Part shown: in pieces, positions 17,344-45,181 of the stretch | Layout of the letters: every line of letters starts with the position of its first letter | Numbering within the stretch: the first letter of the stretch is position 1 | From: Candidatus Polarisedimenticolaceae bacterium | GTDB taxonomy: Bacteria > Acidobacteriota > Polarisedimenticolia > Polarisedimenticolales > DASRJG01 | Direction of reading: 5' to 3' | NCBI GenBank assembly: GCA_036376135.1 | Contig: DASVAW010000044.1 | Span: 1 to 62,862 of the forward strand | DNA: 62,862 nucleotides | Notes under the pieces: model-generated | The model's database searches: none | What the model was told of the DNA's origin: nothing | What the model saw: only the letters and a program-made list of their open reading frames with translations | Program-made: the position numbers and the translations under genes

Positions 17344-17354
17344 CCCGGACCTCC

Positions 17355-18215: not shown

Positions 18216-18712
18216 CCGATTCGCGCGCCGGCGGCTCCGGTGGGTTGCGTCGTGAAGTCGTCGACCTTCTCGTGGATCACGACGGACTTCCCGACGACGT
18301 TCGTCCCCGGATCGCCGCCGATCGTCCAGAGCGTCGTCTCGAACTCGAGCTCGGCCTCGCCCTGGGCGTTCGCGACGAGGTTGCCGATGTCGCCGTGGTG
18401 GAACTTCGACTCGTGCCCCCACTTCCCGTGGGGCGCCCCGGTGGGATTCCAGTGTCCGCCCGCCGTCGCGGCATCGGGGGCGGAGCAGTCTCCCTTCTCG
18501 TGGAGGTGGACGGCGTGCGGGCCCGGCGTGAGCCCCGTCACGCGGATCTTCATCTCCACCCCGCCGTCGTCGACCTTGAAATGGGCCTCTCCCTTCACCG
18601 CGCTGCCGCTTCGCGCCTCGATCGTCGCCTTGGCGTGCGGCGGCTTCTCCTTCGCGAGCGCCGCGGGCGAGGCGGCGAGCATCGCGGCGCAGAACAGGAC
18701 GGTCGTTCTCAT
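18197..18712 (-). CDS. sodC: Cu/Zn superoxide dismutase, periplasmic
   Basis: 171 residues with signal peptide 1-20. Copper ligands H69 and H71 (HAVHLHEKGDC), H87 (GGHWNP) and H147 (VVIHE); D108 in HHGDIGN completes the zinc site; C76 and C167 (IGCGVI) form the conserved disulfide. The enzyme dismutates superoxide outside the cytoplasm. Overlaps the hutU stop by 4 bp (ATGA) and the tatT start by 19 bp, so it is embedded in the urocanate hydratase/transporter operon, which is not a usual neighbourhood. Confidence 0.94.
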   Translation of the reverse strand: MRTTVLFCAAMLAASPAALAKEKPPHAKATIEARSGSAVKGEAHFKVDDGGVEMKIRVTGLTPGPHAVHLHEKGDCSAPDAATAGGHWNPTGAPHGKWGHESKFHHGDIGNLVANAQGEAELEFETTLWTIGGDPGTNVVGKSVVIHEKVDDFTTQPTGAAGARIGCGVIR

Positions 18713-29285: not shown

Positions 29286-31340
29286 ATGTCCCGGTCGATG
29301 CGGCGCGGAATGGGCACCTGGTTCCCGATATTGGCGCTCGCCGGCGCGAGCGCCCCCTCCTGCCCTGCCCCACGCCGCATCGACGCCCCCATCGTGATCG
29401 TGTCCATCGACACCTTGCGGGCCGATCACCTCGCCGCGTGGGGAGGCCGGGGGGTCGCGACCCCCGCGCTCGACCTCCTGCGTCGCGAGTCGATCCTCTT
29501 CGAGCGCGCGTACACCCACGCCCCGCTGACGCTGCCCTCGCACGCGTCGCTGTTCACCGGGCTCCTCCCCGCCGATCACGGCGTGCGCGACAACGTCGGC
29601 TACGCGCTCGACGCGGCGAGGGCGCCCACCCTCGCCGCCGCGCTGCGGGCGCGGGGGTACGCGACGGCCGGCTTCGTCTCCTCGTTCGTGCTCCGGCGCA
29701 AGACCGGGATCGGCGACGGATTCGACGTCTGGGACGACGCGATCGACCCCTCCGCCTCGCGCCTGGCCGAGGCGAGCCGCGACGGCGCCGAGACGGTGCG
29801 ACGCGCCCTGACGTGGCTGCGCCGGCGCGACGGGAGGCCGTTCCTGCTCTTCGTGCACCTCTACGAGCCGCATGCGCCGTACGCCCCTCCGGAGCCGTTC
29901 CGCACCCGCTACGCCGGGCGGCCGTACGACGGCGAGATCGCCTACGCCGATGCGCTCGTCGGCCGGCTGTTCGACGCCCTGCGCGAGGACGGGACCTGGG
30001 ACCGCGCGACGATCGTCCTCCTCTCCGATCACGGCGAGGGCCTCGGCGAACACGGCGAGGAGGAGCACGGCGTCTTCCTCTACCGGTCGACCCTTCACGT
30101 CCCGCTGATGGTGAAGCTCCCCGGCGGCGAGCGCGCCGGAACGACCCTGGCGCGACCCTGCGGGCTCGCCGAGGTCGCGCCGGCCCTCCTCGGTCGCGGC
30201 GACCTGCTCGATCCGTCGTCGCGGGGGCGCACGATCGTTTCGGAGACGGCCTACCCGCGACTGCACTTCGGCTGGAGCGACCTCACGAGCGCGATCGAAG
30301 GAGACCTGCAGGCGATCGCGGCTCCGGAGCCCGAGGTGTACGACCTCACGCGCGATCCCCGGCAGGAACACAACCTCGCCCCCGGATTCGGCGCCGAGCT
30401 GCTCGCGGCGGCCCACCGCGCCCGCTCCCTCCCCGAGCGACCGGAACCCGTCGACGGCGAGACGCTCGCCAAGCTCGCCTCCCTCGGTTACCTCGGCGGC
30501 GTCGCCGCCGCGGGCCCCGACGACGCGGACCTTCCGGACCCCAAACACCGGATCGGCGACCTCGCCGGCCTCCGGCGCGGGTGGAGCGCCCTCGCCGAGG
30601 GGCGGCCGGCGGAGGTGGTCGCGGACCTTCCCCCGCTGCTCGCGCGGAACCCGCGCCTGCTCGACGGCTGGGAGCTACTGGCACGCGCCCTCGACGCCGT
30701 GGGAGACGTGGAGGCGGCCCGCCGTGCGTGGGACCGGGCGGTCGAGATCTCCGGCGGCGCGCCGCCGATCACCCTCGGCGCCGCGGCGGCGAACCTCCGG
30801 CAGGGGCGGATCCCCGAAGCCCGCGCCCTCGGGGAGGTCGCGCTCGCCGCCGGGATCCCCGGCTCGCGCGAGGTCCTGGCAAGGGCGGCGATCCTCGAGC
30901 GACGGGGGGACGAGGCGGAGGCGCTCGCGCGCGCCGCGATCGCCGACGACGGCTCGCGCATCGCGCCGCGCATCGTCCTCGCCGAAGCCCTCCTCGCCCA
31001 GGGGAAGTTCGCGGAGGCGCTCGCGGAGACCGACCGCCTCCTCGAGGTCTACCGGGCCCTCGCGACCCCGGATCCCGCCGCGCTTCGCGGAGCCGCCCTC
31101 GTGCGCGGCCGCGCCTTCGCCTCGCTCGGCGACGCCGACCGCGCGACCGCGGCGCTCGAGCAGGAGATCGAGCTCTTCCCCGACCAGGTCGCCGCCTACG
31201 CGCACCTCGCCGTCGTCCGCCGCCTCGCGGGCGACGCCGCGGGGGCCGGCGACGTCGTCCGGCGCCTGCGCTCGGCGCCGTCCGTCCGCGCCGCGCAGGA
31301 AGCCGATCGCCTCTCGGCGATGTTCCGGAGGCCGTCATGA
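29286..31340 (+). CDS. sulfatase-fold protein with C-terminal TPR module, paralog 1
   Basis: 684 residues from 29286; ATGs at 29298 and 29310 are also possible and a signal peptide fits all three, with a possible lipid Cys at 26 (APSC). Alkaline-phosphatase-superfamily domain about 35-400: SIDTLRADHL (metal Asp D42), LTLPSHASLFTG (79-92), LSDHGEGLGEHGEEEHG. The formylglycine position is T82 and the usual Arg is His, so classical sulfatase activity is unlikely; Thr could act as nucleophile as in phospho-transferases. A conserved linker SLGYLGG...LPDPKH (about 398-420) leads to helical TPRs. Overlaps the next gene (ATGA). Confidence 0.85.
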   Translation: MSRSMRRGMGTWFPILALAGASAPSCPAPRRIDAPIVIVSIDTLRADHLAAWGGRGVATPALDLLRRESILFERAYTHAPLTLPSHASLFTGLLPADHGVRDNVGYALDAARAPTLAAALRARGYATAGFVSSFVLRRKTGIGDGFDVWDDAIDPSASRLAEASRDGAETVRRALTWLRRRDGRPFLLFVHLYEPHAPYAPPEPFRTRYAGRPYDGEIAYADALVGRLFDALREDGTWDRATIVLLSDHGEGLGEHGEEEHGVFLYRSTLHVPLMVKLPGGERAGTTLARPCGLAEVAPALLGRGDLLDPSSRGRTIVSETAYPRLHFGWSDLTSAIEGDLQAIAAPEPEVYDLTRDPRQEHNLAPGFGAELLAAAHRARSLPERPEPVDGETLAKLASLGYLGGVAAAGPDDADLPDPKHRIGDLAGLRRGWSALAEGRPAEVVADLPPLLARNPRLLDGWELLARALDAVGDVEAARRAWDRAVEISGGAPPITLGAAAANLRQGRIPEARALGEVALAAGIPGSREVLARAAILERRGDEAEALARAAIADDGSRIAPRIVLAEALLAQGKFAEALAETDRLLEVYRALATPDPAALRGAALVRGRAFASLGDADRATAALEQEIELFPDQVAAYAHLAVVRRLAGDAAGAGDVVRRLRSAPSVRAAQEADRLSAMFRRPS

Positions 31341-32458
31341 ACATCCGCGCGCTCGCGCTAGCCCTCGCGCTCCTGTCCGTGTCGTCCGCCGCAGCCGACG
31401 GAGGTCGCGCCACCGGCACCGTGAAGGACCTCGCGGGGCGACCCGCCGACGGCCTCGAGTTGCACCTCGTCGCGGAGGACGGCACGCCGGCGAGCGTCCC
31501 CCCCGTCCGCGTCACGAAGGGGCGGTTCGTCATCCCGGCCTTCCCGCCGGGCTCGTTCCGGCTCGTCGTCGTGGACGGCACCGTCGCCGTGCGACGCTTC
31601 GAGATCGCGATCCGCGGGTCGGACGGCGCGAGGCTCGGGGCGACCGCCGTGGACGTGCCGCCGGGAGCCGCGCCCCCCGCATTCGCCGTGGGCGGCACGC
31701 AACGCGCGGAGATCGTCTTGACGATCGGTCCCGCGGGCGGCCCCTCTCCGTCCGACATCCGCGCGGCGCGACAGACCTCGGCGAAGCTCGAGCGGCTCAA
31801 CGCGCTCCTCTCGGAGGGTGCGTTCGAGGAGCTCCTGCGCGCCTGCGACGACACGCTCGCCGCCGATCCGACGCTCGCGGGCGCGGTGTACCTGCGGGCG
31901 GTGGCGTTGTGGAAGACGGGGCGCCTGCCGGAGGCCGCGGAGGCGATCCGGCGCGCGCTGCAGGCCGATCCGGAGCAATCGGGGATCGACGCCGTCGCCG
32001 CCGCGATCCTGCTCGACGCCGCCGCCGCGACGCCCGCGTCCGCCCCCGCGCTCGTCGCCGAAGCCGCGGCGCGGCTGGCCTCGCGCGACCCCTCCGACCG
32101 GGCCCGGCGCGCGGCGACGCGGCGGGGCGCCGAGATCCTCCTCGACGCCGGCCGCGCGGACGAGGCGCTCGACGTCCTGCTGGGGGATCCCGCACCCGAC
32201 GCCGAGACGGCGCTCGCCGCCTACAACGCCGCGGTCCCCCTCTACAACGCCGGGAAGATGGAGCGCGTGCGCGACGCCATGCGACGGATCGTCACCGCGG
32301 TCCCCGATTCCGCCCCGCCCCATCGCCTGCTCGGGCGCGCGCTGCTCGCCCTGGGAGAGATCGACGCGGCGGCCCGGGAGATCGAGACCTTCCTTCGCCT
32401 CGCCCCGGACGACCCGGAGGCCGGGAACGAACGCGCGATCCTCGAGGGGATCCGCTGA
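31337..32458 (+). CDS. secreted carboxypeptidase-regulatory-like / TPR protein
   Basis: 373 residues. Signal peptide 1-20 (MNIRALALALALLSVSSAAA), an Ig-like carboxypeptidase regulatory domain about 24-110 (GTVKDLAGRPADGLELHLV... FPPGSFRLVVVDG), then TPR repeats 145-373 (AVYLRAVALWKTGRLPEAAEAIRRALQADPE). ATG follows CGGAGGCCGTC and overlaps the sulfatase-like stop. No enzyme motif; likely a periplasmic partner of paralog 1. Its last 167 bases overlap the opposing paralog 2 reading frame. Confidence 0.8.
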   Translation: MNIRALALALALLSVSSAAADGGRATGTVKDLAGRPADGLELHLVAEDGTPASVPPVRVTKGRFVIPAFPPGSFRLVVVDGTVAVRRFEIAIRGSDGARLGATAVDVPPGAAPPAFAVGGTQRAEIVLTIGPAGGPSPSDIRAARQTSAKLERLNALLSEGAFEELLRACDDTLAADPTLAGAVYLRAVALWKTGRLPEAAEAIRRALQADPEQSGIDAVAAAILLDAAAATPASAPALVAEAAARLASRDPSDRARRAATRRGAEILLDAGRADEALDVLLGDPAPDAETALAAYNAAVPLYNAGKMERVRDAMRRIVTAVPDSAPPHRLLGRALLALGEIDAAAREIETFLRLAPDDPEAGNERAILEGIR

Positions 32459-34520
32459 CCCCTGCGCTGCGCCGCGCGCGCGCCAGCAACGCCTGCGCCC
32501 GGGGGTCGTCCGGAGAAGTCGCGACCAGGCGCTCGAAGGTGCGGATCCCTTCGAGACCCCGGCCCGCCTGCATGTGCAGGATCCCGAGGTTGGTGAGCGC
32601 CTCCACGTTGTCGGGGAACGAGGCGAGCTCCGCTTCGTATTCCCGGCGCGCCCCCTCGCGATCGCCCCGCGCGTCGGCAAGGAGGGCGAGGTTGAAGTGC
32701 GCGCTGCGCTGCCGCGGCTGGACGGCGAGCGCGCGCCGGATCTGCGCCTCGGCTTCCGGGAGGCGACCCGCCGCGAGCAGCACCCTGGCGATCTCGTACG
32801 CGGTTCCCGTGGCGTCGGGTCGCTCGCGTTCCAGGCGTCGGAGGCGCTCGATCGCCGCGTCGAACCGACCGACGGCGACGAGGGACTCCACCGCGGCGTG
32901 GTAGGCGGCGACGTAGCGGGGATTCGCCGCGAGGACGGAGTCGGCGAGGTCGACGGCGACGGCGTGTTCCCCCTTCGCCGCGTGCGCCCGGGCGAGCCCC
33001 ATCCGCGCCTGCACGGCGTCGGGATTCGCCTCGAGGACCCGTCGCAAGGCACGGACGGCGTCGTCGGGACGGCCGAGCCGCGTGTAGATCGTTCCCAGGA
33101 ACTGCCAGCCGTCGACGTAGTTCGGCTCCACCTCGAGGGCTCGCTCCACGACCGCGGCCGCGTCGCCGTACCTCCCCGAACGCATCGCCTGGGACGTCGC
33201 GCGGGCCGCGCGGACCAGCAGGTCGAGCTCCTCACCCTTGTCCTTGGGATCGGGAAGCTCCGACCCCGCCGTCTTCGCGACGCCCCCCACGTACCCCAGG
33301 GCCTGCAGGCGCGCGAGCGCCTCCGGGTCGATCGCCTGCGGCGCCGGGGTCGAGGCGGAGGCCATCCCCCGCAACGTCGCGCGCATCTCGGCGACGCGCT
33401 CGGGGTGGACGTCGGCGACGTTGCGGGTCTCGCCGGGATCGCGCTCGAGGTCGTAGAGCTCCACCGTCGGAAGGTCGACGAGCTTGAAGCGCCCCTCGCG
33501 CAGCGCCGTCACCTCCCGCCACCCGTAGTGGAACCGGACGTAGAACGACTCCGCGTAGGCCGTGCGTTCGGCCGGACGGAGCAGGCTCGCGCCGCGCACC
33601 GCCGCGGGGGGCTGGATCGCGAGGACGTCGAGGATCGTGGGCATCACGTCGAGGTCCCGGGCCACGTCGTCCACCACTCCCCGGCGGGACGCCCCCGGCA
33701 GGCGCACGACGAGCGGGACGTGGAGGGTCGAGTCGTAGGCGTAGATGCCGTGGTCGGGCTCGCCGTGCTCGCCGAGTCCCTCGCCGTGATCGGCGGTCAC
33801 GACGATCACGGTGTTCTCGTAGAGGCCGAGCTCGCGCAGCCGGTCGAGCACGCGGCCCAGCTGCGCGTCGGCGTAGGCGATCTCGCCGTCGTACGGGGCC
33901 GACGCGAAGGCGGTCGCGAGCTCCCCCTTCGGCTCGTACGGCCAGTGCGGGTCGTAGAAGTGGAGCCACGCGAAGAAGGGCCGGGCCCGGTTCGCCTCGA
34001 GCCAGGCGATCGCCCGGTCGGCGACCTCGGCGCCGTCGCGCTGCTGGTGGAGGTCGGCGGCGGCGACCGGGTCGTCCGGGCCGAACGCGTCGTCGTAATG
34101 GTCGAACCCCTGCGCGATCCCCCAGTGATGGTTGAGGACGAAGGCACCGACGAACGCCGCGGTCGCGCGGCCGCTCGCGCGCAGGATCTCCGCGAGCGTC
34201 TCGTGCCCGTCCGCGAGGAAGAACCCCCCGTTGTCGCGCACGCCGTGCACCGGCGGGGGGGTTCCGGTCATCAGCGCCGCGTGCGCGGGGAGGGTCAGCG
34301 GGACCGACGAATAGGCGCGGGAGAAGCGGAGCCCCTCGCGCGCGAGCCCGTCGAGGGTCGGGGTGCGCGCGGTGGCGTGCCCCCAGGCGCCGATCCGGTC
34401 GGCGCGCGTGGTGTCGAGGGTCACCAGGAGGACGTTCGCGTCCGGGCGGCGGAGCTCGCGCTCCCCGCCGCAGGCCGCGACGGCCAGGGCGACGACGAGT
34501 ACCGACGAACGGATCCGCAT
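32292..34520 (-). CDS. sulfatase-fold lipoprotein with C-terminal TPR module, paralog 2
   Basis: 742 codons. Lipobox AVAAC with C17. TLDTTRADRIGAWGH (metal Asp D36), LTLPAHAALMTG (75-86) with T76 at the formylglycine position and His for Arg, and TADHGEGLGEHGEPDHG. Linker ALGYVGGV...LPDPKDKG, then at least six TPRs (YVDGWQFLGTIYTRLGRPDDAVRALRRVLEANPD and following). The domain ends near LLARARRSAG; the remaining 56 or so residues are Arg/Pro/Gly-rich and lie antisense to the carboxypeptidase-regulatory/TPR gene, so the natural stop may have been lost. Directly downstream of the TonB receptor (50-bp gap with a hairpin). Confidence 0.84.
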   Translation of the reverse strand: MRIRSSVLVVALAVAACGGERELRRPDANVLLVTLDTTRADRIGAWGHATARTPTLDGLAREGLRFSRAYSSVPLTLPAHAALMTGTPPPVHGVRDNGGFFLADGHETLAEILRASGRATAAFVGAFVLNHHWGIAQGFDHYDDAFGPDDPVAAADLHQQRDGAEVADRAIAWLEANRARPFFAWLHFYDPHWPYEPKGELATAFASAPYDGEIAYADAQLGRVLDRLRELGLYENTVIVVTADHGEGLGEHGEPDHGIYAYDSTLHVPLVVRLPGASRRGVVDDVARDLDVMPTILDVLAIQPPAAVRGASLLRPAERTAYAESFYVRFHYGWREVTALREGRFKLVDLPTVELYDLERDPGETRNVADVHPERVAEMRATLRGMASASTPAPQAIDPEALARLQALGYVGGVAKTAGSELPDPKDKGEELDLLVRAARATSQAMRSGRYGDAAAVVERALEVEPNYVDGWQFLGTIYTRLGRPDDAVRALRRVLEANPDAVQARMGLARAHAAKGEHAVAVDLADSVLAANPRYVAAYHAAVESLVAVGRFDAAIERLRRLERERPDATGTAYEIARVLLAAGRLPEAEAQIRRALAVQPRQRSAHFNLALLADARGDREGARREYEAELASFPDNVEALTNLGILHMQAGRGLEGIRTFERLVATSPDDPRAQALLARARRSAGVSGSPRGSRVRSRPPGRPGRGEGRSRSPGPPRRSLPGRAARARAGDGAGRNRGPR

Positions 34521-34534
34521 CCCGCCCCCGAGCA

Positions 34535-34565
34535 GGGCCCCGGAGGGAAGTCCCCCCCGGGGCCC
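34535..34565 (-). other. intercistronic hairpin between TonB receptor and sulfatase-like gene
   Basis: 9-bp arms GGGCCCCGG/CCGGGGCCC enclosing a smaller GGGA/TCCC stem, 6 bp after the receptor stop and 15 bp before the next ATG. No T-run follows, so it is more likely an mRNA-stabilising or partially terminating element that lowers expression of the distal gene. Confidence 0.55.
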
Positions 34566-34570
34566 GTCGA

Positions 34571-37519
34571 TCAGAAGTTCAGACTCGCGCCCACACGGAT
34601 GATCCTCGGGCTGAGGGTCTCCGTGATCGCGTTGGTGTTCCCCGCCGAGTTCACGCGCGGCTTCTGCGAGAGCACCGTGTTGCGGTCGAAGACGTTGAAC
34701 ATGTCCGCCCGCAGCTCCAGCACGCCCCCTTTCTGGAGCTTCACGTTCTTCGCGAAGCCGAGGTCGAACGTCCAGAGGGTGTCGTACCTCGCGTCCCCGA
34801 TCTCGCCGATCTGGACGTCCTTCCCGCTCGCGCGATGCATGTACGGGATGCCGTACCCCTGGCGAACGTAGAGGTTCCCGGAGAGCGTCATGTCCCGCGG
34901 AAGCTGGTAGAGGCCGTTGACGTTCGCCTGCCAGCGGCTCGTGCCGAGCCAGACGCCGTCCTTGGTCCCCGAGCCGACCGACGGGATCGAGACCTCTCCG
35001 CCGGGCTCGGTGGTGCCGCCCTGGAAGTTGGTCGGGTCGGAGATCCCCTGGGTCCCGCTGAACTCCTGGGTCCAGTCGTTCACCGCCACGTATCCGCGCA
35101 GCATCCACCGGTTCGACAGCCGTTTGGTGGCGGTGATCTCGAGCCCCTTGTAACGCTGCTCGTACCCGGGGCGGTTGGTCAGGAAGCTGGGGCTTCCGTC
35201 GTTGGTGAGAAGCTCCCCCGCCGGGCTGAGGGTGCAGAACGGCTCGCTGTAGGGGGTCCCGTCCGGGAAGGTTCCCGACACGGTGGCGGAACAGTCGTAG
35301 AAGCTCGCGTCGATCGGCCGAAGCTCCCCGGTCGCCTCGAAGTGGGGGACGTCGTAGAGCGGTCCCGCGGCCGCGACCGGCCTGCCGTCGAGGTTCCCTT
35401 CGATCCACCGGTCCCGGTCCCGGTTCCTCCAGAGGATGTTCGCCGCGATCGTGAAGTCGCGCGCGAGCTCGACCTCGGCGCCGAAGATGAACTCGCGGAC
35501 GCGCGGCGCCTCGTAGTCGGGGTCGATCCTGTCCGCGAACAACGTCGGGTCGCACGCCACCACCGAGCCGCCGAGCGCATCGGCGCAATCGGTCGAGAAC
35601 TCCCCGGGATCGACCTTGCGGTTGTCGTTCGCGTCGGCGAACGCGTGCACGAGGTACGCGTACGAGGCCGCGGGGTTGTCGTAGTTGATGTCGCTCACGT
35701 AGAGCTGGTCGACGTACTGGGCGTAGTTGGCCCGGAGGAGCAGGCGCTTGCGGGTGTCGAAGGTGTAGGTCGCGCCGACCCTCGGGCTCACGTCCTTCCA
35801 CGTGAAGACCTCGCTCCCGCCCGCGTAGGAGACGCCCGGAAGGCACGTCGGGCACAGCCCCACCGCCGCGACGTCGGCGGGGGTGTTCTTCCCCTGCTGC
35901 TCGGTGTACGAGAGGCCGGCGGTGACCGCCCAGTTCCCCTTCGTCACGGTGTCGCCGACCCACGCGTTGACGTGTTCCATGTCCACGGCGTAGTCCCGCT
36001 CGCGGTAGAGATAGACGTAGCTGGCGGAGTAGACGAAGTTGTCGAGATTGCTCCACTTCGAGAGCGACTCGACCGTCGTCTTCTTGTAGCGGTAGCCGTA
36101 CTTGACCTCGTGCTCCCATCCCGCCGTGTCGAAGAAGTTCGACCCGCGGACGACGAACTGGTCCTGGGGGCGCACGGTGTCGTAGAGCAGGTAGGACCCG
36201 CTCCACACGTTGTTCTCGTCGTTGAAGATCTGCGCGTCGAGTCCCCCCTTCGGCGTCAGGCTGAACTTGCCGTCGACGTGCCCCGCCTGGAGGGACAGGT
36301 CCCAGTTCGGGTTGATCAGCGCGCTCGCGTAGGCGGTGTAGATCGGTGTGGGCCCCTTCTGGATCCACGTGGTCTCCGCGGGGCGCGTCACCGCGGCGCC
36401 GCGGCCGTCCTTGGCCTTGTTGCCGTTCGAGTAGAACAGCTTCCAGTTCCACCGCGCGCCGACCTGCCCGTGGATCTTCGCGGTCGTGTTCTTCAACTTC
36501 GTCTTGTCCGAGACGTTGGCGACCTGGTTGTCGATGTCGTTCTGCCCGAACCCGACCCAGTACCAGATCTTGTCCTTCAGGATCGGCCCGCCGAACGAGA
36601 CGTTCTTCTCGAAGACCTCGTTCACCTGGTTGTTCGGCGGCAGGTTGTTCCCCGGGAAGAAGGTCTCCGGGTCGGGGGGCGTGACCACGACCCCCTCGGG
36701 TTGCGTGATCGTCTTCACGTCGGACTGCAGTCCCTTCGAGGTGTACCAGAGCCTCAGGTTCCCGGAGAACTCGTTCGTCCCCTGCTTCGTCGTGAAGTTG
36801 AGGCGGGCCCCGCCGTTGGCCTGGTCGACGTCGGCCCCGCCCGTCACGAACCCGATCTCCTCGAAGGTGTTGAAGTCGAAGTAGGTCGGCGACGAGCCGA
36901 CGGCGCCGAGGTCGGTGAATTCGACCCCGTCCATGACCCACGTCGTGTTCGTGCCGTCGTCGCCGTTGCCGACGAAGTTGGATTGCTGTCCGGCCTCGTT
37001 CCCGGCCACGTTCACGCGGTCGGTCGTCACGCCGGGGACGGTCGAGAGGACCGCCCACGGATCGCGCGAGGTCGGGATCTGGCTCACCTCGTCTTGGGTG
37101 AGCACGGTCGCGGTGCCCATGCGCCGCTGGTCGAGCAGCGGGGACTCGGCGGTGACGGTGACGGTCTGGCTCAACTGCGACTCCGGCGTGAGCCGCACCT
37201 GCAGGGACGCGCTCTGGAAGGTGGCGACGTCGACCTGCTCGACCGTCACCTTCGCGAACCCCTTGGCCGAGGCCGTGAGCCGGTAGGCCCCCGGCTCGAG
37301 TCGCACGAATCGGGCCTTCCCGTCCGCACCGGTCGTCGAGGCGCGCGAGAAATCGCCCCCCGCGAGCGTCAGCTCCGCCCCCGCCACCGGCTTCCCCGCG
37401 TCGTCCTTCACCTCGACGAACAGGTTGCCGCGGTACTCCTGCGCGGCGACGGGTGCCGCCGCGAGAAGGACCGCCGCCGCGGCGAATCGCCATCGGTTCC
37501 ATCGTCGTATCCGGTTCAT
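34571..37519 (-). CDS. TonB-dependent receptor with N-terminal carboxypeptidase-regulatory domain (Oar-like)
   Basis: 982 residues. Signal peptide 1-26 (FAAAAVLLAAAPVAAQ). Carboxypeptidase-regulatory Ig-like domain about 29-110 (FVEVKDDAGKPVAGAELTLAGGD... LEPGAYRLTASAKGF), plug about 113-240 (TVTAESPLLDQRR, VLTQDEVSQIPTSRDPWAVLSTVPGV, TTWVMDGVEFTDL), then a long beta-barrel ending in GASLNF with the terminal Phe needed for barrel insertion. Oar-type receptors in Acidobacteriota and Myxococcota handle peptides, proteins or glycans; ligand unknown. ATG follows a perfect AAGGAGGAAGC. Linked with the sulfatase-like paralog 2 in one transcript. Confidence 0.93.
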   Translation of the reverse strand: MNRIRRWNRWRFAAAAVLLAAAPVAAQEYRGNLFVEVKDDAGKPVAGAELTLAGGDFSRASTTGADGKARFVRLEPGAYRLTASAKGFAKVTVEQVDVATFQSASLQVRLTPESQLSQTVTVTAESPLLDQRRMGTATVLTQDEVSQIPTSRDPWAVLSTVPGVTTDRVNVAGNEAGQQSNFVGNGDDGTNTTWVMDGVEFTDLGAVGSSPTYFDFNTFEEIGFVTGGADVDQANGGARLNFTTKQGTNEFSGNLRLWYTSKGLQSDVKTITQPEGVVVTPPDPETFFPGNNLPPNNQVNEVFEKNVSFGGPILKDKIWYWVGFGQNDIDNQVANVSDKTKLKNTTAKIHGQVGARWNWKLFYSNGNKAKDGRGAAVTRPAETTWIQKGPTPIYTAYASALINPNWDLSLQAGHVDGKFSLTPKGGLDAQIFNDENNVWSGSYLLYDTVRPQDQFVVRGSNFFDTAGWEHEVKYGYRYKKTTVESLSKWSNLDNFVYSASYVYLYRERDYAVDMEHVNAWVGDTVTKGNWAVTAGLSYTEQQGKNTPADVAAVGLCPTCLPGVSYAGGSEVFTWKDVSPRVGATYTFDTRKRLLLRANYAQYVDQLYVSDINYDNPAASYAYLVHAFADANDNRKVDPGEFSTDCADALGGSVVACDPTLFADRIDPDYEAPRVREFIFGAEVELARDFTIAANILWRNRDRDRWIEGNLDGRPVAAAGPLYDVPHFEATGELRPIDASFYDCSATVSGTFPDGTPYSEPFCTLSPAGELLTNDGSPSFLTNRPGYEQRYKGLEITATKRLSNRWMLRGYVAVNDWTQEFSGTQGISDPTNFQGGTTEPGGEVSIPSVGSGTKDGVWLGTSRWQANVNGLYQLPRDMTLSGNLYVRQGYGIPYMHRASGKDVQIGEIGDARYDTLWTFDLGFAKNVKLQKGGVLELRADMFNVFDRNTVLSQKPRVNSAGNTNAITETLSPRIIRVGASLNF

Positions 37520-37733
37520 GCTTCCTCCTTGCTCGACGGCGAATGGAGCGCGCGCCGAGTGCGCCGCCTTCCACGCAACGGCTCTGCCACCGAGGGGTCC
37601 GCCGGGACGGCGGCGACGGCCTGCTCGCCGCACGCATCGTCCGATTCGCCGATTCGACGTTCCGGCGCGTCCGGTTTCCCGTAGACCTCCAAGAATCCGG
37701 GGCGCATGCCGCGCCGCCGGGGGAGGTGTCGCC

Positions 37734-39755
37734 GTGCGCTTCGCCCTCGTGCTCGCACTGGTCGCGCTGTCCGCCGGGTGCGGCGCCGCGAGCTCGCCTC
37801 GCCCGCGCGACGTGGTCGTGATCACCGTCGACACCTGGCGCCACGACGCCGCGGGGTTCGCGGGGAACGCGCGGATCCGAACCCCCGCGATCGACCGCCT
37901 CGCCGCCGAGGGGATCGTCTTCTCGAACGCCCGGGCGCACGCGGTGGTCACGCTCCCGTCCCACGCGTCGCTGCTGACCGGACGCCTGCCGTTCGAGCAC
38001 GGCGCCCGGGACAACGGAGGGTTCGCGCTGAACGAACGGAGCCCCACGCTCGCGAGCTGGCTCCGGGCGCGCGGGTTCCGGACGGCGGCGTTCGTGTCGG
38101 CGTTCCCTCTGGATGGGCGGTTCGGGCTCGATGCCGGGTTCGACCTCTACGACGATGCCGTCGGCGCGGCGGGCTCGGGCGCCGCCGATGCCCTCGCGCA
38201 GCGCGACGGGGCCGCCACCGTCGCTCTCGCCCTGGCGTGGTGGCGCGCGAACCCGTCGCCGAGATTCCTATGGGTGCACGTCTTCACCCCCCACTTCCCC
38301 TACGACGCTCCCGAGCCGTTCGCCTCGCGGTGGCCCGACCAGCCGTACTTCGCGGAGGTCGAGCGGACCGACGCCGAGCTCGCTCCGCTGCTCGAGGCCC
38401 TGCGCGCGGAGCCCGGCCCGGGTCCCCTCGTCGTGCTGACCGCCGACCACGGCGAGTCCCTCGGCGAACACGGCGAGGCGACGCACGGCCTGTTCGCCTA
38501 CGACGCCACGGCGAAGGTGCCGCTGGTCGTCTGGGAGCGCGGCACGCTCGCCCCCGCCGCCGTCGATCGCCCGGTCGGCCACGTCGACGTCGTGCCCACG
38601 GTCTGCGCGCGGCTGGGGATCGCCGCACCCGACGGACTTCCCGGCCGCTCGCTTCTCGACGGCGGCGAGGTCGCCGACACGTACGTCGAGGCGATGGCGG
38701 CCCACCTGCACCGCGGGGCCGCCCCCCTCGCGGCGGTCGTGCGCGGGCGCTACAAGGCGATCCGGCTCCCCGAGCCCGAGCTGTACGACCTCGAGGCCGA
38801 CCCCGGAGAGCGCCGCAATCTCGCCCCGGTGGAGACCTCGCGTTACGAGGCCCTGGTCGCCGACCTCCCGAAGGAGGCGTACGGCGGTCTCGCCGCCGCT
38901 CCCGTCGACGACGACGCCGCGGCGCGCCTTCGCTCCCTCGGGTATCTCGTCGGAACCTCCGATCGCGCCGGCGTCGAGGACCCCAAGCACCTCGTCGAGG
39001 AGGACCGTGCGATCGACGCGGCGCTCGGAGCGTGGCGGCGCGGGGACCGGGACGCGGCCGTCACCGGGCTGCGCCGGCTCCTCGAGCGCCGCCCCCGCTG
39101 CGCCCCCGCGCGCTCGCACCTCGCGGGATTCCTCACGGACCTCGGCCGCCTCGACGAGGCCGCCGAGGCGCTCGCGCCGGCCACGGACGAGACGAGCCGG
39201 GTGCGGCGCGCGCTTCTGATGCTGCGCCGGGGCGACACCGCCGCGGCATCGGCGCTCCTCGCCCCGTTCGGCGATTCGGCCGACCCGGAGACGCAGAGCG
39301 CTCTCGGTCGCGTCGCGGCGGTCCTCGGAAACCGGGTCGAGGCGCGCGGTCGTTTCGAGCGGGCGCTCGCCCTCGATCCGACCTACCCGGAGGGTCTCGC
39401 CGATCTCGGCACGTTGCTGCTCGACACGGGGGACGTGGACGGCGCGCGCGCGCGACTCGAGGCGGCCGTGGCGGCCGCACCGTCGCTCGCGGAGGCCTGG
39501 AACGGGCTCGGCGTCGTCCGCGCCCGGTCGGCCGACGACGCCGGCGCGATCGATGCGTGGGACCGCGCGGTCGAAGCGGACCCGACCCTCGCCGACGCCT
39601 GGTTCAACCTGGCCGCGGCTTCGGCACGGGGACGGGCCTGGGGGCGCGCGGCCGCGGCGCTCGAGCGATACGCCGCGCTCGTCGACGGCGAGGACCGCGC
39701 GCGAGCCCTCGAGCTGCTGCGCCGCGTGCGCGCGGGGGAAGGAGGGCGCGGATGA
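37734..39755 (+). CDS. sulfatase-fold lipoprotein with C-terminal TPR module, paralog 3
   Basis: 673 residues from a GTG preceded by GGGGGAGGTGTCGCC. Lipobox LSAGC (C16). TVDTWRHDAAGF (metal Asp D33), VTLPSHASLLTG with T73 at the formylglycine position, and TADHGESLGEHGEATHG. Linker SLGYLVG...EDPKH, then TPRs about 425-673 (GRFERALALDPTYPEGLADLGTLLLDTGDVDGARARLE). Same architecture as paralogs 1 and 2. First of three overlapping genes with a small secreted protein and a VWFA-related protein. Divergent from the TonB receptor across 214 bases that hold only a short CGATTCG direct repeat and presumably both promoters. Confidence 0.85.
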   Translation: MRFALVLALVALSAGCGAASSPRPRDVVVITVDTWRHDAAGFAGNARIRTPAIDRLAAEGIVFSNARAHAVVTLPSHASLLTGRLPFEHGARDNGGFALNERSPTLASWLRARGFRTAAFVSAFPLDGRFGLDAGFDLYDDAVGAAGSGAADALAQRDGAATVALALAWWRANPSPRFLWVHVFTPHFPYDAPEPFASRWPDQPYFAEVERTDAELAPLLEALRAEPGPGPLVVLTADHGESLGEHGEATHGLFAYDATAKVPLVVWERGTLAPAAVDRPVGHVDVVPTVCARLGIAAPDGLPGRSLLDGGEVADTYVEAMAAHLHRGAAPLAAVVRGRYKAIRLPEPELYDLEADPGERRNLAPVETSRYEALVADLPKEAYGGLAAAPVDDDAAARLRSLGYLVGTSDRAGVEDPKHLVEEDRAIDAALGAWRRGDRDAAVTGLRRLLERRPRCAPARSHLAGFLTDLGRLDEAAEALAPATDETSRVRRALLMLRRGDTAAASALLAPFGDSADPETQSALGRVAAVLGNRVEARGRFERALALDPTYPEGLADLGTLLLDTGDVDGARARLEAAVAAAPSLAEAWNGLGVVRARSADDAGAIDAWDRAVEADPTLADAWFNLAAASARGRAWGRAAAALERYAALVDGEDRARALELLRRVRAGEGGRG

Positions 39756-40324
39756 CCGCGACGGCGCTTGTCGCGATCGTGCTCGCCGCCTCGATCGGCG
39801 ACGATTCGACGACCTTCTTCAGCGAAGGGGGCGACGTCCTCCTCGGCGCGGACACCCGCGCGGCCGCGAACACACCCGCGGATGCGGAGCTCGTCCCGCT
39901 GCTCGTCGTGGTGCTCCAGCGGGGGAAGGGGTCGCTGACGCTGACGCGGGAGAGCTTCGAGCTCTTCTTCCCCGACGGGACGCGCCTGCCCGCGGCGGGG
40001 ACGGAGGAGTTCTGGCGCGAGCACCGGAGAGCGCGCGCCGACCGGCGCCTGGGATCGCGATTCCTCGAGGCCGTGTTCGGGCGATGGCCCTCGCCGCCCT
40101 GGCGATGGGCGTCGCTCGACTTCTTCCCGCAGCGGAACGGGCCCACACCCCGGGACGGCCTCGACCTCCGGCTGTCGGAAGGAGCGTTCGGCTATCTCTA
40201 CTTCCGCATTCCGGGCGGCCTCCGGACGCGACGAGGGGCGTCGGCCCAGCTGCTCGTCCGCCCGCGCGGCTCCCCCGCCGCGATGGTCCTCGACCTGCGC
40301 CTCCCCGGCCCGGAGGCGCGATGA
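39752..40324 (+). CDS. secreted hypothetical protein
   Basis: 190 residues; short signal peptide (MTATALVAIVLAASI). The rest is soluble, with beta-like segments (LVPLLVVVLQRGKGSLTLTRESFELFFPDGTRLPA) reminiscent of small Ig-like envelope proteins. Not recognised. ATGA overlaps on both sides with the sulfatase-like gene and the VWFA-related gene indicate tight co-translation, so it probably acts with them in the periplasm. Confidence 0.72.
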   Translation: MTATALVAIVLAASIGDDSTTFFSEGGDVLLGADTRAAANTPADAELVPLLVVVLQRGKGSLTLTRESFELFFPDGTRLPAAGTEEFWREHRRARADRRLGSRFLEAVFGRWPSPPWRWASLDFFPQRNGPTPRDGLDLRLSEGAFGYLYFRIPGGLRTRRGASAQLLVRPRGSPAAMVLDLRLPGPEAR

Positions 40325-41970
40325 TCGCGCTCGTGCTCGCCGCGGTGGTCGCGCTGCAGGAGAAGGTCGAGGTGACCCTGGTCGAGGTCGTCGTCCGGGC
40401 GACCGACCGCGACGGCGCTCCGGTCCGGACCCTGCTCCCGGAGGACCTGCGGGTCACCGAAGGGCGCGAGCCGAGGAACGTCGCCTTCGTCGAGCCGTTC
40501 CTCGGGACCGGCCGGAGCGCAGCCCCCCCGACGGCGCTCTACGACGCCGCCGGGAGCGCGGTCGCGCCGACGACGGTCCCGGTCGCAGCACCGCTCCCGG
40601 CCCGTCGATTCGTGCTCGCCTTCGACGTCGCGAACAGCCGCGCCCGCGCACGCACGGCCTGGAAGGAAGCGGCCGCCGGCTGGCTGCGCGACGGGGCGCG
40701 GCCGGGAGACCGGTTCGCGGTGGTCCTTCTCGGCTCGGGACCGGAGTGGGTCCGGACGTTCACCGCGGACCCTCGGAAGGCGCTCGAGGCCCTCGAAGCG
40801 GTCGATCTCGCGGGCCGGGGCGGAGAGCGCGATCGCCGTCGCGAAACGACGGCGCTCTGGAACGAGATCGAGTCGTGCGCCTCCGCCGCCGAGAGCGGGT
40901 CGAGGCGGGTCGGCGGCGACGGGAGCGACTGCGCGACCGCGATCCTGGAGCCGGCCGTCGCGCAGTGGAACGCGGAATCGAGAGAGACGCTCGGCGCGCT
41001 GCGCTCGCTCGTCGGGCAACTCGCCGCCGTCCCCGAGCGCAAGCAGGTGCTCCTGTTCTCGGACGGCTGGTACGCCGATCCCCCGGCGCAGGCCGCAAGC
41101 CTCCATCTCGCGCTGTTCGGCGCGGGATCGCGCACCCCTCTCACCGGGATCGGCCGGGACCTCGGCCCCGACGTCGCCCTCGAGGCGACCGCGCTGCACG
41201 AGGCGGCGGCACGCGCGGGGGTCGCGGTCTACTCCTTCGACACGCGATCCCCCGCCGAGCGCGGGCACCACGACGGCGTCGAGGTCGAGCGCGGCACGGC
41301 CTCGGGGGCTTTGGGCGCGCACCCCTGGACCGACGCGTACGCGGCGACGAGCGGCGCCCTCGAGGCGCTCGCGAACGAAACCGGCGGCGAGGCGTATTTC
41401 GGAGCGAAGGACCTCGCCGGCAAGATCCTCCGCGCGCAGGGCGCCTACGACGCCCTCCACGTGGTCGGTTTCTACCGGCCCCAGGGGGCCGATCCCGGCG
41501 CGCGGCTGCGGATCGAGCCGGGACGCCGCGGACTCCGACTCGACCACGCGCGGCGCGCACGCGGCCCGGGCGACGAGCCCCGCTCGGCGGGAATCGACCT
41601 GTCGATCCGGGCGCCGGAAACGGGGAGCGCGGAGGACCGGCGCCGTCTCCCGATCACCCTCGACCTCGGGGTGAACGAGCTTCCCCTCCGCAACGTGGAC
41701 GGGACCTGGGGATGCCGCGTCGGCTACTTCGTCCAGGCCTTCCGGCCCGACGGCACCGTGATCGCGGAGGCGTTCGACGAGGCGACGATCGCCCTCGAGA
41801 CGCGGCCGGCGCGCGACGAGGCGCGCCGTTTCCGCCGGCTGGTGACCCTCGACCTCCCGCTCGGCCCCGCCCGGATCCGCGTGCGCGCCGCCGACGACCG
41901 GAGGCTCGTCCTCGCCGATCGCGCGGTGGACGTCACGTTGACCCGGGACGGCGTGCGAGCCGGCTTATAG
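40321..41970 (+). CDS. VWFA-related protein (acidobacterial TIGR03436 type)
   Basis: 549 residues. Signal peptide MIALVLAAVVALQ; N-terminal VEVVVRATDRDGAPVRTLLPEDLRVTEGREPRNVAFVEPF is the start signature of this Acidobacteriota-typical family. A von Willebrand A-like domain follows (about 98-350: RFVLAFDVANSRARARTAW, PERKQVLLFSDGW, AARAGVAVYSFDTRSP, ALEALANETGGEAYF). The MIDAS DxSxS is altered to DVANS, so metal binding may be weak. Then a beta-rich tail. Function unknown; presumed envelope adhesion or assembly. Its 3' end overlaps the ABC permease stop by 6 bp. Confidence 0.86.
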   Translation: MIALVLAAVVALQEKVEVTLVEVVVRATDRDGAPVRTLLPEDLRVTEGREPRNVAFVEPFLGTGRSAAPPTALYDAAGSAVAPTTVPVAAPLPARRFVLAFDVANSRARARTAWKEAAAGWLRDGARPGDRFAVVLLGSGPEWVRTFTADPRKALEALEAVDLAGRGGERDRRRETTALWNEIESCASAAESGSRRVGGDGSDCATAILEPAVAQWNAESRETLGALRSLVGQLAAVPERKQVLLFSDGWYADPPAQAASLHLALFGAGSRTPLTGIGRDLGPDVALEATALHEAAARAGVAVYSFDTRSPAERGHHDGVEVERGTASGALGAHPWTDAYAATSGALEALANETGGEAYFGAKDLAGKILRAQGAYDALHVVGFYRPQGADPGARLRIEPGRRGLRLDHARRARGPGDEPRSAGIDLSIRAPETGSAEDRRRLPITLDLGVNELPLRNVDGTWGCRVGYFVQAFRPDGTVIAEAFDEATIALETRPARDEARRFRRLVTLDLPLGPARIRVRAADDRRLVLADRAVDVTLTRDGVRAGL

Positions 41971-44496
41971 GTCGTCGCGGCTCAGCTCCGTCGCCGGGGT
42001 CCCGCTCGCGCGGACCGCCGGATAGACGCTCGCCGCGATCGCCGCGAGGAGGATCGTCCCGGTCTGGGCGGCGAGGGCCCCCCACGGCCAGTGCATCGCG
42101 ATCGTCCACCCGAACCAGGCGCGGTTGATGACGAGCACGAGCACGAGCGCGAGCAGCACCCCGGCGACGCTTCCGACCGCGAGGCCGAGAACCCCCATGC
42201 CCAGTCCTTTCCCGAGGAAGACGCGGAAGATCTGCGCGCGCGTCGCGCCCAGGGCGCGATACAAGGCGAGCTCGGAGACCCGCTCGCGCGCGAGGATCAG
42301 CAGGGTGAGGGTGATCCCGCAGGCCGCGATCAGGAGACTCATCGCCTGGAGCAGCCGCGTGACCGCGAAGGTCTGGTCGAAGATCCGGTAGACCTCCTCC
42401 CGCAGCGTGCGGTTGCTTCGCGCCTGCAGCCCCGCGTCGGGGAACTCCGCGCGGATCCGGTCCACGATCGATTCGGGATCGACGCCCGGCGCGAGGTAGA
42501 GGGCGATATTCGACACCGGTCGCGGCCCGAAGATCCCATCGAGGGTCGCGAGGTCGACGAGCGCCCCTCCCGACTCCGAGCTGTAGTCGTAGAAGATCCC
42601 GGCGACCTCCAGGGAGACGTCCCCGTCCGGCCCGGTGACCGGGAACCGGTCGCCGACGGCGAGCCCCGCCTTCCGCGCGAACGGCTCCGAGATCAGCGCC
42701 GCCCCGTGGTCGATCACCCGGCGCATCGCGACGACGGGATCGCCGGAGAGCAGCTCCACGCGGGCGAGGTCGGGGGCGCGTCCGAGCTCGGCGCCGCCGA
42801 CGGTGATCCGGCGCTCGCCGCTGCGGACGACGACCTGACGCAGGCGATCGACGGCGACGACTCCCGGCATCGACGCGAGCCCCCGCTCGAGCGCCGGGTC
42901 GAGGACCGCCGCGCGCCGGGAGCGCTCCCACGACGCGGTGGTGACGTAGACGTCCGCCGCGAGGGTCTTGCCGATCCACAGCTCGACCGTGCGACGGAAG
43001 CTCCCGATCATCAGCGTGATCCCGACGAGCATCGCCACCGCGACCGCCAGCGCCGCCACCGCGAACGCCGTCGAGCCGAGGCGCGCTCCCAGCGCCCGCG
43101 CGCCGTACAGGAACGAGAAGCCGCCGGCGCGAAGGCGCGCCGCCGAGCGCGACAGCAGCCACGGGACGACGAGGGGGATCGCGACGACGATCGCGACCGC
43201 GAGCACGAAGCCCCCCGGCCGCCACGCGTCTCGCACGACCGCTCCGAACACCCCCGCGCCGGCGAGGACGGCGAGCCCCGCGACGAACAGGCCTTTCGAC
43301 GCGCCGCCGAGCGACTCGTGCAGGTCGAACGCCGCGAGCAGGCGTCGCGGATCGCGGCGCGCGGTCTCGAGCGCGGGGCCGAGGGCCCCCGCGAGGACGC
43401 CCCCCGCCCCCACCGCCGCGGCGAGCGGGACCATCCACCACGGGAAATCGAGGCGCTCGATCTCCTCGAGCATGTACAGGTTCGAGATCGTGCGGCTGAC
43501 CGTCTCGACGTTCGACTGCGCCGCCGCCCAGCCGAGCGGCACGCCGATCACGGTCCCGAGCGTGCCGAGGACGGCGACCTCCGCGAGGATCAGGCGGAGC
43601 ACCAGCGCCGGCGACGCCCCCAGCGAGCGAAGCAGGCCGAACTCGGAGCGGCGGCGCACGAGCGCGGCCCGCGTCGAGGCGTGGATCAGGAACCCGCCGA
43701 CGAACAGGCTGATCAGGGACAGGGCGGTGAGGTTCAGCCGGAACGCGCCGAGAAGCCCCGTGGCCTGGCTTCGCCGTTGCTCGGGGGAGACGACCTCCAC
43801 TCCGGGGCCCAGCCGCGCTCGAAGTCCTCGCGCCGCCGCGTCGCGCTCTCCCGGGCTCGCCTTCACGTCGATCTGCCCGAGCTCCCCGCGCGCCCCGAAA
43901 CGGTCCTGCGCCTGCGCGAGGTCCATCACGACGAGCCGGCGGCTCGCCAGCGGCGTGAGCTTCCGGAAGTCGACGAGCGCCCCGACGTGCAGGCGCACGC
44001 GCCGCGTGCCGAGGCTCACCTCGAAGGTGCTTCCGGGTTTCCACCCCTTCTCGGCGGCGAGCTCGGGGGTCACCGCGACCCAGCCGGGTTTCACCAGCGC
44101 CTCGCCCAGGTCGCCGGGAGGGGCTTCCCCGTCCCACGGGATCCGTGCCGCCGCGAAGAGATCGACGCCGACGACCTGGAGGAACCGCGGCTCGGGCTCC
44201 CCGGCGAGCGCGACCTCCACCCGCCAGAGCGGCCACGCCGCCGCGACCCCCGGCGTCGCGAGCACCCGCGGGAGCAGGGTCTCGTCGAGGACGTCGGCGC
44301 GCGGGAGCACCGAGAGATCGGCCTCGCCGCTGACCGCCTGCAGGCTCCCCTCGAAGGCGCCGAGGGCCGAGCGGTTGAGGATCTGGATGCCGACGACCGA
44401 GGCGACGCCCAGCGCCACCCCCGCGAGGGTCAGGAGGAACAGCACCTTCCCCGCGCGGAAGTGCGCGACGAAGGCGAGGAGGAGCAGCCGGCCCAT
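41965..44496 (-). CDS. ABC transporter permease, FtsX/MacB-type, two FtsX domains
   Basis: 843 residues. N-terminal helix (about 17-37), a large periplasmic domain (about 40-250), a first FtsX block (about 260-380: LFVGGFLIHASTRAALVRRRSEFGLLRSLGASPALVLRLILAE), central helices, a second periplasmic domain and a second FtsX block at the C-terminus (about 715-835: LLILARERVSELALYRALGATRAQIFRVFLGKGLGMGVLG). Ends in TPATELSRDDL. The layout matches AttFGH/LolCE-like extruders of lipoproteins, lipids or peptides. One base separates its start from the ATPase gene stop. Confidence 0.9.
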   Translation of the reverse strand: MGRLLLLAFVAHFRAGKVLFLLTLAGVALGVASVVGIQILNRSALGAFEGSLQAVSGEADLSVLPRADVLDETLLPRVLATPGVAAAWPLWRVEVALAGEPEPRFLQVVGVDLFAAARIPWDGEAPPGDLGEALVKPGWVAVTPELAAEKGWKPGSTFEVSLGTRRVRLHVGALVDFRKLTPLASRRLVVMDLAQAQDRFGARGELGQIDVKASPGERDAAARGLRARLGPGVEVVSPEQRRSQATGLLGAFRLNLTALSLISLFVGGFLIHASTRAALVRRRSEFGLLRSLGASPALVLRLILAEVAVLGTLGTVIGVPLGWAAAQSNVETVSRTISNLYMLEEIERLDFPWWMVPLAAAVGAGGVLAGALGPALETARRDPRRLLAAFDLHESLGGASKGLFVAGLAVLAGAGVFGAVVRDAWRPGGFVLAVAIVVAIPLVVPWLLSRSAARLRAGGFSFLYGARALGARLGSTAFAVAALAVAVAMLVGITLMIGSFRRTVELWIGKTLAADVYVTTASWERSRRAAVLDPALERGLASMPGVVAVDRLRQVVVRSGERRITVGGAELGRAPDLARVELLSGDPVVAMRRVIDHGAALISEPFARKAGLAVGDRFPVTGPDGDVSLEVAGIFYDYSSESGGALVDLATLDGIFGPRPVSNIALYLAPGVDPESIVDRIRAEFPDAGLQARSNRTLREEVYRIFDQTFAVTRLLQAMSLLIAACGITLTLLILARERVSELALYRALGATRAQIFRVFLGKGLGMGVLGLAVGSVAGVLLALVLVLVINRAWFGWTIAMHWPWGALAAQTGTILLAAIAASVYPAVRASGTPATELSRDDL

Positions 44497-44497
44497 C

Positions 44498-45181
44498 TCA
44501 GGCGGTCTCGAGAGTCCCGCTGTGCAGGCGCCAGCGCGCCGAGGCGAGCGCGGCGAGCTCGAGGCTGTGGGTCACGTAGAGGAGGGTCGATCCCTCTTCC
44601 GCGGCCAGGCGGAGCAGGAGGTCCATGACGACGCGGCTGTTGTCGTCGTCGAGGTTGCCGGTCGGCTCGTCGGCGAGAAGCAGCCGCGGCTTGCGGACGA
44701 GGGCCCGACAGATCGCCACGCGCTGCATCTCGCCGCCGCTCAACTTCTGCACCGGGTCTCCCGCCCGGTCGGCGAGCCCGACACGCTCGAGCAGCTCGAG
44801 GGCCCGGCGCCTGGGGCCGTCGCCGCGGTCCCCCGCGATCCAGCACGGGAGCATCACGTTGTCGACGACCGAGAGGTGGCCGAGCAGGTGGAAGAACTGG
44901 AACACGAACCCGACCGCGTCGCGACGCAGTCGCGTGCGCTGCGCCTCGGAGAGGGACGCGAGGTCGTGCCCTTCCAGCTCGACGCGCCCTTCGGTGGGGC
45001 TGTCGATCCCGGCGGCGAGGTGGAGGAAGGTGCTCTTGCCGCTGCCGCTGCGGCCGATCACCGCGATCCTCGATCTCTCGGGGACCTCCGCGGTGGCGTT
45101 ATGGAGCGCGTGGTGGAGCCGCCCGTCGGCGAGACGGTAGGTCTTCGAGACGCCGGTGAACCGGAGGACCGGGGGTGTCAC
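44498..45181 (-). CDS. ABC transporter ATP-binding protein (LolD/MacB type)
   Basis: 227 residues. Walker A GRSGSGKST, Q-loop FVFQFFHLLGHLSVVDNVMLP, signature LSGGEMQRV, Walker B RLLLADEPTGNLD and switch His in VTHSLE are all intact. LHHALHNATAEVPERSRIAVIGRSG and the FFHLLGHLSVVDNVMLP stretch are typical of LolD/MacB ATPases that drive mechanotransmission across the envelope rather than transport through a channel. Pairs with the downstream FtsX-type permease. Upstream, 40 bases to the DUF4328 gene stop hold nothing recognisable. Confidence 0.94.
   Translation of the reverse strand: MTPPVLRFTGVSKTYRLADGRLHHALHNATAEVPERSRIAVIGRSGSGKSTFLHLAAGIDSPTEGRVELEGHDLASLSEAQRTRLRRDAVGFVFQFFHLLGHLSVVDNVMLPCWIAGDRGDGPRRRALELLERVGLADRAGDPVQKLSGGEMQRVAICRALVRKPRLLLADEPTGNLDDDNSRVVMDLLLRLAAEEGSTLLYVTHSLELAALASARWRLHSGTLETA

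Follow-up and report, generated by a model that had tools for sequence, protein, structure and literature searches.

The window analyzed here, a stretch of 62,862 nucleotides from a Candidatus Polarisedimenticolaceae bacterium (phylum Acidobacteriota; contig DASVAW010000044.1), encodes three proteins of common build, termed S1, S2, and S3, which are probably lipid-anchored phosphodiesterases or phosphotransferases with a Thr nucleophile, acting in an envelope module together with an Oar-type, TonB-dependent receptor. This reading is drawn from computation of fold, residue conservation, alignment to the phosphoethanolamine transferase EptA, synteny, and orthology, from which we infer the metal, the phospho-intermediate, the substrate, the partner of the tetratricopeptide repeats (TPRs), and a connection to the receptor. 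The chemistry is most likely phosphoryl transfer to Thr, given that the active-site residues match those of EptA and MCR-1, and that YejM and LtaS share the same type of Thr and metal.

Build and Fold of the S Proteins

S1: 29286–31340, + strand; 684 aa; Thr-type sulfatase-fold domain and TPRs, motif TLPSH; PF00884 match, E 2e-41
S2: 32292–34520, - strand; 742 aa; lipoprotein, Thr-type sulfatase-fold domain and TPR superhelix, motif TLPAH; PF00884 match, E 9e-48
S3: 37734 (GTG start)–39755, + strand; 673 aa; lipoprotein, Thr-type sulfatase-fold domain and TPRs, motif TLPSH; PF00884 match, E 8e-35

Each protein combines a signal peptide, a PF00884 catalytic domain, an LGY(L/V)..DPK linker (LGYLGG...DPKH in S1, LGYVGG...DPKD in S2, and LGYLVG...DPKH in S3), and TPRs, for which several TPR models match every one of the three. 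A preliminary description of this DNA, made from its letters and open reading frames, had given the same coordinates and gene builds, which agree with the reading frames and profile matches obtained here; the shared linker and TPR module that it reported are seen in all three proteins, and the TLPxH motif that it placed at the sulfatase CxPxR position is read as TLPSH, TLPAH, and TLPSH. Its proposal of a lipoprotein or secreted N-terminus holds for the signal in all three and for the lipobox in S2 (VAAC) and S3 (SAGC), both of them good, while the lipobox of S1 (APSC) is poor; the S1 ortholog in genome G032 carries the lipobox VSAC. The family PF01663 (Phosphodiest) is also matched by S1, S2, and S3 (64.9, 61.4, and 33.4 bits, respectively, against a cut-off of 23), and is outscored by PF00884 in each case. 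In profile scans, models of EptA, MCR, YejM, and LtaS have weak, local similarity to the S proteins, and the C-terminal part of S2 is SGSH_C-like.

The catalytic domain of S2 begins at approximately residue 28, immediately after the signal and lipobox. An AlphaFold2 model of S2 residues 26–690, built with 60 sequences, has a pLDDT of 93.4 and a pTM of 0.90, and shows a single domain, similar to sulfatases and phosphonate monoester hydrolases, with a long superhelix of TPRs after it. The top Protein Data Bank matches to this model are sulfatases of SulfAtlas family S1 and phosphonate monoester hydrolases (Z ∼34–40, maximum 39.8, over ∼330–390 residues). EptA does not appear in a list of aligned matches, which carries no weight as evidence. 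No solved chain covering the fused sulfatase-fold and TPR build was found by sequence.

Active-Site Residues

Numbering of active-site residues follows S2; the main alignment holds 60 diverse members, and a wider set holds ∼156 catalytic domains. Nine residues (D36, T37, T76, H187, H192, D244, H245, E247, and H257) are invariant in all 60 members, and H80 occurs in 59. Across the wider set, which comes from many phyla, D36, T76, H187, H192, D244, H245, E247, and H257 are kept at 92–99%; 97% of the domains have Thr at the nucleophile position, and in 78% His stands in place of the motif Arg.

When S2 is aligned with Escherichia coli EptA (hhalign; E 5e-9, identity 23%), D36 falls on the metal Glu (GETSRAE), T76 on the second Thr of CGTATAV, H187 and H192 on LHTIGSH, D244-H245-G-E247 on SDHGESLGE, and H257 on LHG. 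The Zn1 ligands of MCR-1 are E246, T285, D465, and H466; in its crystal structure, H395 and H478 flank the phosphorylated Thr285, and E468 forms a hydrogen bond with H478 (PMC5216409). By alignment, the predicted Zn1 ligand set of the EptA/MCR type (Glu/Asp, Thr, Asp, His) is present in the S proteins, together with the second-shell His/His and Glu (H187/H192, H257, and E247), and the spacing in MCR-1 of H466 to E468 (2) and of H466 to H478 (12) is identical to that of H245 to E247 and H245 to H257 in S2. From sequence, D190 (84% of the ∼156 domains), H192, and H257 may be ligands of a second zinc site of the PF01663 type (Asp/His/His). Among the other PF01663 proteins of these genomes checked by simple pattern searches, T-x-P-x-H occurs in just one (L242, TLPSHYSMLSG), and no argument from the nucleotide pyrophosphatase/phosphodiesterase (NPP) motif is therefore used here.

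The residues that define a sulfatase are replaced. Compared with the E. coli sulfatase-type protein YidJ (E 1e-36), CTPAR becomes TLPAH and GKWHL becomes GAFVL, and throughout the 60-member alignment the sulfatase Cys, the motif Arg, the Lys and His of GK.H, and the second metal Asp are all exchanged; the sulfate-binding Lys/His of GKxH are not present, as almost every member has small or hydrophobic residues at the aligned positions 125–128. These replacements bear on the possibility that S1–S3 are true sulfatases, lacking formylglycine or using a Thr-derived cofactor, that desulfate glycans imported through Oar. Such a role would suit the nearest solved structures, which by both sequence and fold are family S1 sulfatases and phosphonate monoester hydrolases, as well as the sub-threshold matches of the S proteins to the NCBIfam arylsulfatase and choline sulfatase models. 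Against it stands an invariant His/Glu set of the phospho-type, and the oxidation of Thr yields a ketone rather than formylglycine, with no such case demonstrated (PMC5066984). Given the loss of Cys, Arg, Lys, and His, we reject a sulfatase function, which we consider very improbable.

Pseudoenzymes occur in the alkaline phosphatase superfamily, and the large TPR domain is predicted at high confidence, so that the S proteins could be imagined as catalytically dead, sulfatase-fold scaffolds whose function lies in the TPR part. Yet nine active-site positions are retained across phyla in at least 59 of 60 members, which a scaffold without catalysis has no need of, and this explanation, rejected because the residues are too well conserved, is highly unlikely to be correct.

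Distribution of the Thr-Type Family

The genome containing the window (4.38 Mb, 179 contigs) has ∼15 PF00884 matches, at least nine of which have the Thr-type sulfatase-TPR build; at least six proteins of this build thus occur besides S1–S3. Family matches are present in 41 of 41 genomes class-wide, at 4 to 34 per genome, and one scan of named genomes returned 76 related loci from Acidobacteriota, Planctomycetota, Myxococcota, Deltaproteobacteria, Eisenbacteria, Gemmatimonadota, and others. On single contigs of metagenome-assembled genomes from other bacteria, three S-family genes lie in tandem (L025, L026, L033, and L041).

According to the SulfAtlas authors, writing in 2016, Thr replaces Cys/Ser in 30 of the 59 PF00884 seed sequences, and Thr-bearing (TXNXE-type) proteins are not to be counted as functional sulfatases without experiment (PMC5066984). 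Because Thr is common across the relatives and was already noted by those authors, the absence of the formylglycine Cys is real yet not new. The view in the preliminary description that Thr points away from sulfatases and toward the phospho-branch of the superfamily agrees with the alignments and with both sources (PMC5066984, PMC5216409), but the TLPxH set, described there for the three genes, extends far beyond this locus and is typical of a very large family that spans many phyla; Thr-bearing PF00884 members had been flagged before (PMC5066984).

The Gene Cluster in the Window

The S genes are interspersed with, or lie beside, the following genes:

CPR-TPR: 31337–32458, + strand; secreted protein with a carboxypeptidase-regulatory-like, Ig-type domain (weak Pfam match) and TPRs
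Oar: 34571–37519, - strand; Oar-like TonB-dependent receptor (CarboxypepD_reg, Plug, and barrel)
DUF190 (a label used here): 39752–40324, + strand; Ig-like beta-sandwich protein, with a lipobox in most homologs
VWFA: 40321–41970, + strand; VWFA-related protein, matching the acidobacterial model TIGR03436 (E 5e-36)
ABC permease: 41965–44496, - strand; FtsX/MacB_PCD type (LolCE/ADOP-like), convergent neighbor of VWFA

The start codon of CPR-TPR overlaps the stop codon of S1 (ATGA), that of DUF190 overlaps the stop of S3 (ATGA), and that of VWFA overlaps the stop of DUF190 (GATGA), which ties S1 to CPR-TPR, and S3 to DUF190 and on to VWFA. The Oar stop lies ∼51 bp ahead of the S2 start on the same strand, S3 is divergent from Oar, and the S2 frame extends ∼165 nt into the convergent CPR-TPR gene, tail to tail. 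From this arrangement, one envelope module appears to be transcribed as three units, S1–CPR-TPR, Oar–S2, and S3–DUF190–VWFA. The TIGR03436 family, along with the relatives found, also points to an acidobacterium as the source of the DNA. The DUF190 protein has a predicted Ig-like fold (pLDDT 89) with generic Ig-like matches in a fold search (best Z 8.5) and has no match in Pfam, NCBIfam, or PHROGs, leaving this lipoprotein family unclassified.

SusD, glycoside hydrolase, and polysaccharide lyase families were not found among the window genes scanned, a set that takes in part of the right flank. A polysaccharide utilization locus of the SusC/SusD type is rejected on this ground, as no SusD-like lipoprotein, glycoside hydrolase, or lyase occurs among the scanned genes, and the lack of glycoside hydrolase and SusD-like genes in the flanks scanned likewise argues against the desulfation of imported glycans.

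The permease gene and an ABC ATPase gene form a pair (41968–45181, - strand) that converges on the VWFA gene. Farther away, a TRAP-type DctP binding protein is encoded beside a TAtT (TRAP-T) protein at 16336–18731 (- strand), next to a urocanase gene, and a gene for topoisomerase VI subunit A (Spo11-type), uncommon in bacteria, is located at the window edge (3–725, - strand).

Recurrence of the Cluster

Genes in flanks were called roughly by GC content at third codon positions (GC3); this procedure miscalled S2, S3, and others, and was used for flanks alone. The envelope system envisaged in the preliminary description presupposed a cluster that recurs in other genomes, and it does recur, including counterparts of all seven cluster genes on contig C18 of genome G032, which belongs to the same order and a different family. 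Identities are 50% for S1, 31% for CPR-TPR (homolog at 7598–8780 of C18), 48% for S2 (57% over the catalytic domain), 41% for Oar, 50% for S3, 33% for DUF190, and 33% for VWFA, and the order and orientation of the Oar/S3/DUF190/VWFA block are preserved. In a tree of 150 catalytic domains, S2 and S3 each pair with their G032 counterpart, and S1, along with a recent paralog on contig C33, groups with its own, all with support of 1.0. Between the two halves of the G032 cluster (C18, 14954–24413; L148/L149) are another VWFA gene and genes for an FG-GAP protein, a TPR protein, and a GDSL lipase; a counterpart of the ABC permease was not among the matches on C18 positions 1–40000.

Across the phylum, the DUF190 model has matches in 63 of 396 genomes, the majority from the class. 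When 20 further DUF190 loci were opened, VWFA and/or Oar adjoined DUF190 in seven genomes (G023, G021, G022, G015, G036, G033, and G034); in G021 (C289), a truncated S3-like gene start lies beside Oar, and in G035 an S3-clade gene occurs together with VWFA. A reduced module of Oar, DUF190, and VWFA, sometimes with S3, recurs across the class. Counting the window and G032, ∼7 of 22 DUF190 loci have Oar as well as VWFA, where a rough estimate of chance gives <0.1; the comparison is no more than indicative, because these loci had been ranked by how similar they are to the query. The S2-clade members in G001 and Candidatus Saccharicenans (L016) have an Oar gene within ∼1.3 kb. DUF190 is itself a good marker of the Oar/VWFA module (window copy and homologs L171–L200).

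A second, paralogous cluster is found in the same genome as the window (contig C93, 469–21143; L136, L169), in the order CPR-TPR, VWFA, Thr-type S, VWFA, Oar, Alginate_exp porin, a 746-aa protein, a PF01663/PhnA-like protein of the alkaline phosphatase superfamily with TPRs, Oar, and VWFA.

These data also bear on whether the S proteins are phospho-enzymes whose proximity to the receptor is incidental, with lineage-specific expansions of several envelope families simply lying together. All three families, S, Plug, and VWFA, are present in multiple copies, Oar is found within 10 kb at few of the S-centered loci of the class (roughly the chance rate), and among 76 outside loci VWFA occurs at none and Oar at few. 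Coincidence fits less well with the presence of seven of seven genes on a single contig from another family, where the Oar/S3/DUF190/VWFA order is kept and S orthology is one-to-one, with the recurrence of the Oar-DUF190-VWFA trio far above the rough chance estimate, and with the overlapping start and stop codons inside the cluster; we judge it unlikely. The association of receptor, sulfatase-fold/TPR protein, and VWFA that had been suggested beforehand thus stands for particular S orthologs, which co-occur with the receptor, and does not clearly extend to S genes as a class; a general association of S genes with receptors is not supported.

Proposed Function

In the favored reading, that of Thr-nucleophile phospho-enzymes in an envelope module, a sulfatase/phosphonate monoester hydrolase fold would serve as the body for an active site of the phosphoethanolamine transferase type. 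Asp36, Asp244, and His245 would hold a zinc-class metal that activates Thr76, with His187, His192, His257, and Glu247 flanking; Thr76 would attack a phosphodiester to give a phospho-Thr intermediate, which either water (as in a phosphodiesterase or phosphatase) or the hydroxyl of an acceptor (as in a transferase) could resolve. The role of the TPR superhelix may be to hold a partner or substrate protein, and the Oar-type receptor may move or display a substrate to which the S enzymes would add, or from which they would remove, a phospho-substituent. Oar of Myxococcus xanthus is required for secretion of the protease PopC (PMC6434023), and on that account the receptor could equally serve in export or in uptake. 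More tentatively, the Oar, VWFA, DUF190, and CPR-TPR module could recruit lipid-anchored phosphotransferases of the Thr type with TPRs, which would attach phospho-substituents to a surface or exported polymer (or remove them from it), a soluble-lipoprotein counterpart of EptA/LtaS chemistry at the outer membrane.

Several observations weigh against this assignment. In overall sequence and fold, the S proteins are closer to sulfatases and phosphonate monoester hydrolases than to EptA, and S2 lacks the N-terminal, multi-pass membrane domain of EptA, an absence that speaks against a simple EptA role. Taken as a class, S genes show no clear enrichment in the vicinity of Oar or VWFA; in G034 and G014, the matches listed include neither a Plug match nor a strong VWFA match within 10 kb of an S gene, and many copies of the module elsewhere have no S gene nearby.

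A Thr-type PF00884 enzyme is of a known kind and, as far as found, uncharacterized. Within a limited search of the open-access literature, no description was found of a TPR fusion of PF00884 or of Thr-nucleophile TPR sulfatases, and both this fusion and the conserved Oar/VWFA/DUF190/CPR-TPR module appear to be undescribed. Sulfatase is probably the current annotation of many proteins with the Thr-type sulfatase-fold/TPR build; if this multi-phylum branch were shown to carry a full phospho-type active site, such annotations would be corrected and a testable enzyme class provided. That the S enzymes are encoded in a conserved cluster alongside an outer-membrane receptor is suggestive of phosphate chemistry on the cell surface. 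Both the VWFA proteins of TIGR03436 and the Oar-type receptors are multi-copy in these genomes, where no role for them was found described, and the conserved cluster gives them a first functional context there.

Comparison With Known Systems

The window receptor resembles Oar of M. xanthus in combining a TonB-dependent barrel with a carboxypeptidase-regulatory domain, as described for that protein; the M. xanthus protein belongs to another phylum, and the abstract on it makes no mention of an S, VWFA, or DUF190 partner (PMC6434023). With the formylglycine sulfatases (SulfAtlas S1, PF00884), the S proteins share the fold (Z ∼34–40), the PF00884 profile, and, in S2, the SGSH_C-like C-terminal part, but they have no Cys/Ser, no motif Arg, and no GK.H Lys/His, one metal Asp is missing, and His takes the place of an Asn. 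S2 is also structurally close to the phosphonate monoester hydrolases (4uph, 2vqr, and 2w8s; Z ∼34–35, 28–31% identity over ∼360 residues), which act on phosphorus substrates and are catalogued in S1_0 with formylglycine enzymes (PMC5066984), whereas the S proteins have Thr and the TPR fusion. LapC (YejM) and LtaS use a Thr nucleophile in metal-dependent phospho-chemistry (PMC7576196), and their profile similarity to the S proteins is detectable; unlike the S proteins, they are integral to the membrane, with other His sets and substrates. Relative to EptA, MCR-1, and EptC, the S proteins lack a transmembrane domain, have a sulfatase-like body with a C-terminal subdomain, a lipoprotein signal, and a TPR superhelix, carry Asp in place of the metal Glu, and have no identified equivalent of MCR-1 Lys333; they share with these transferases the Thr nucleophile, the Asp/Glu-Thr-Asp-His site, the pair of outer His, and the Glu that follows the metal His by two residues, with equal spacing.

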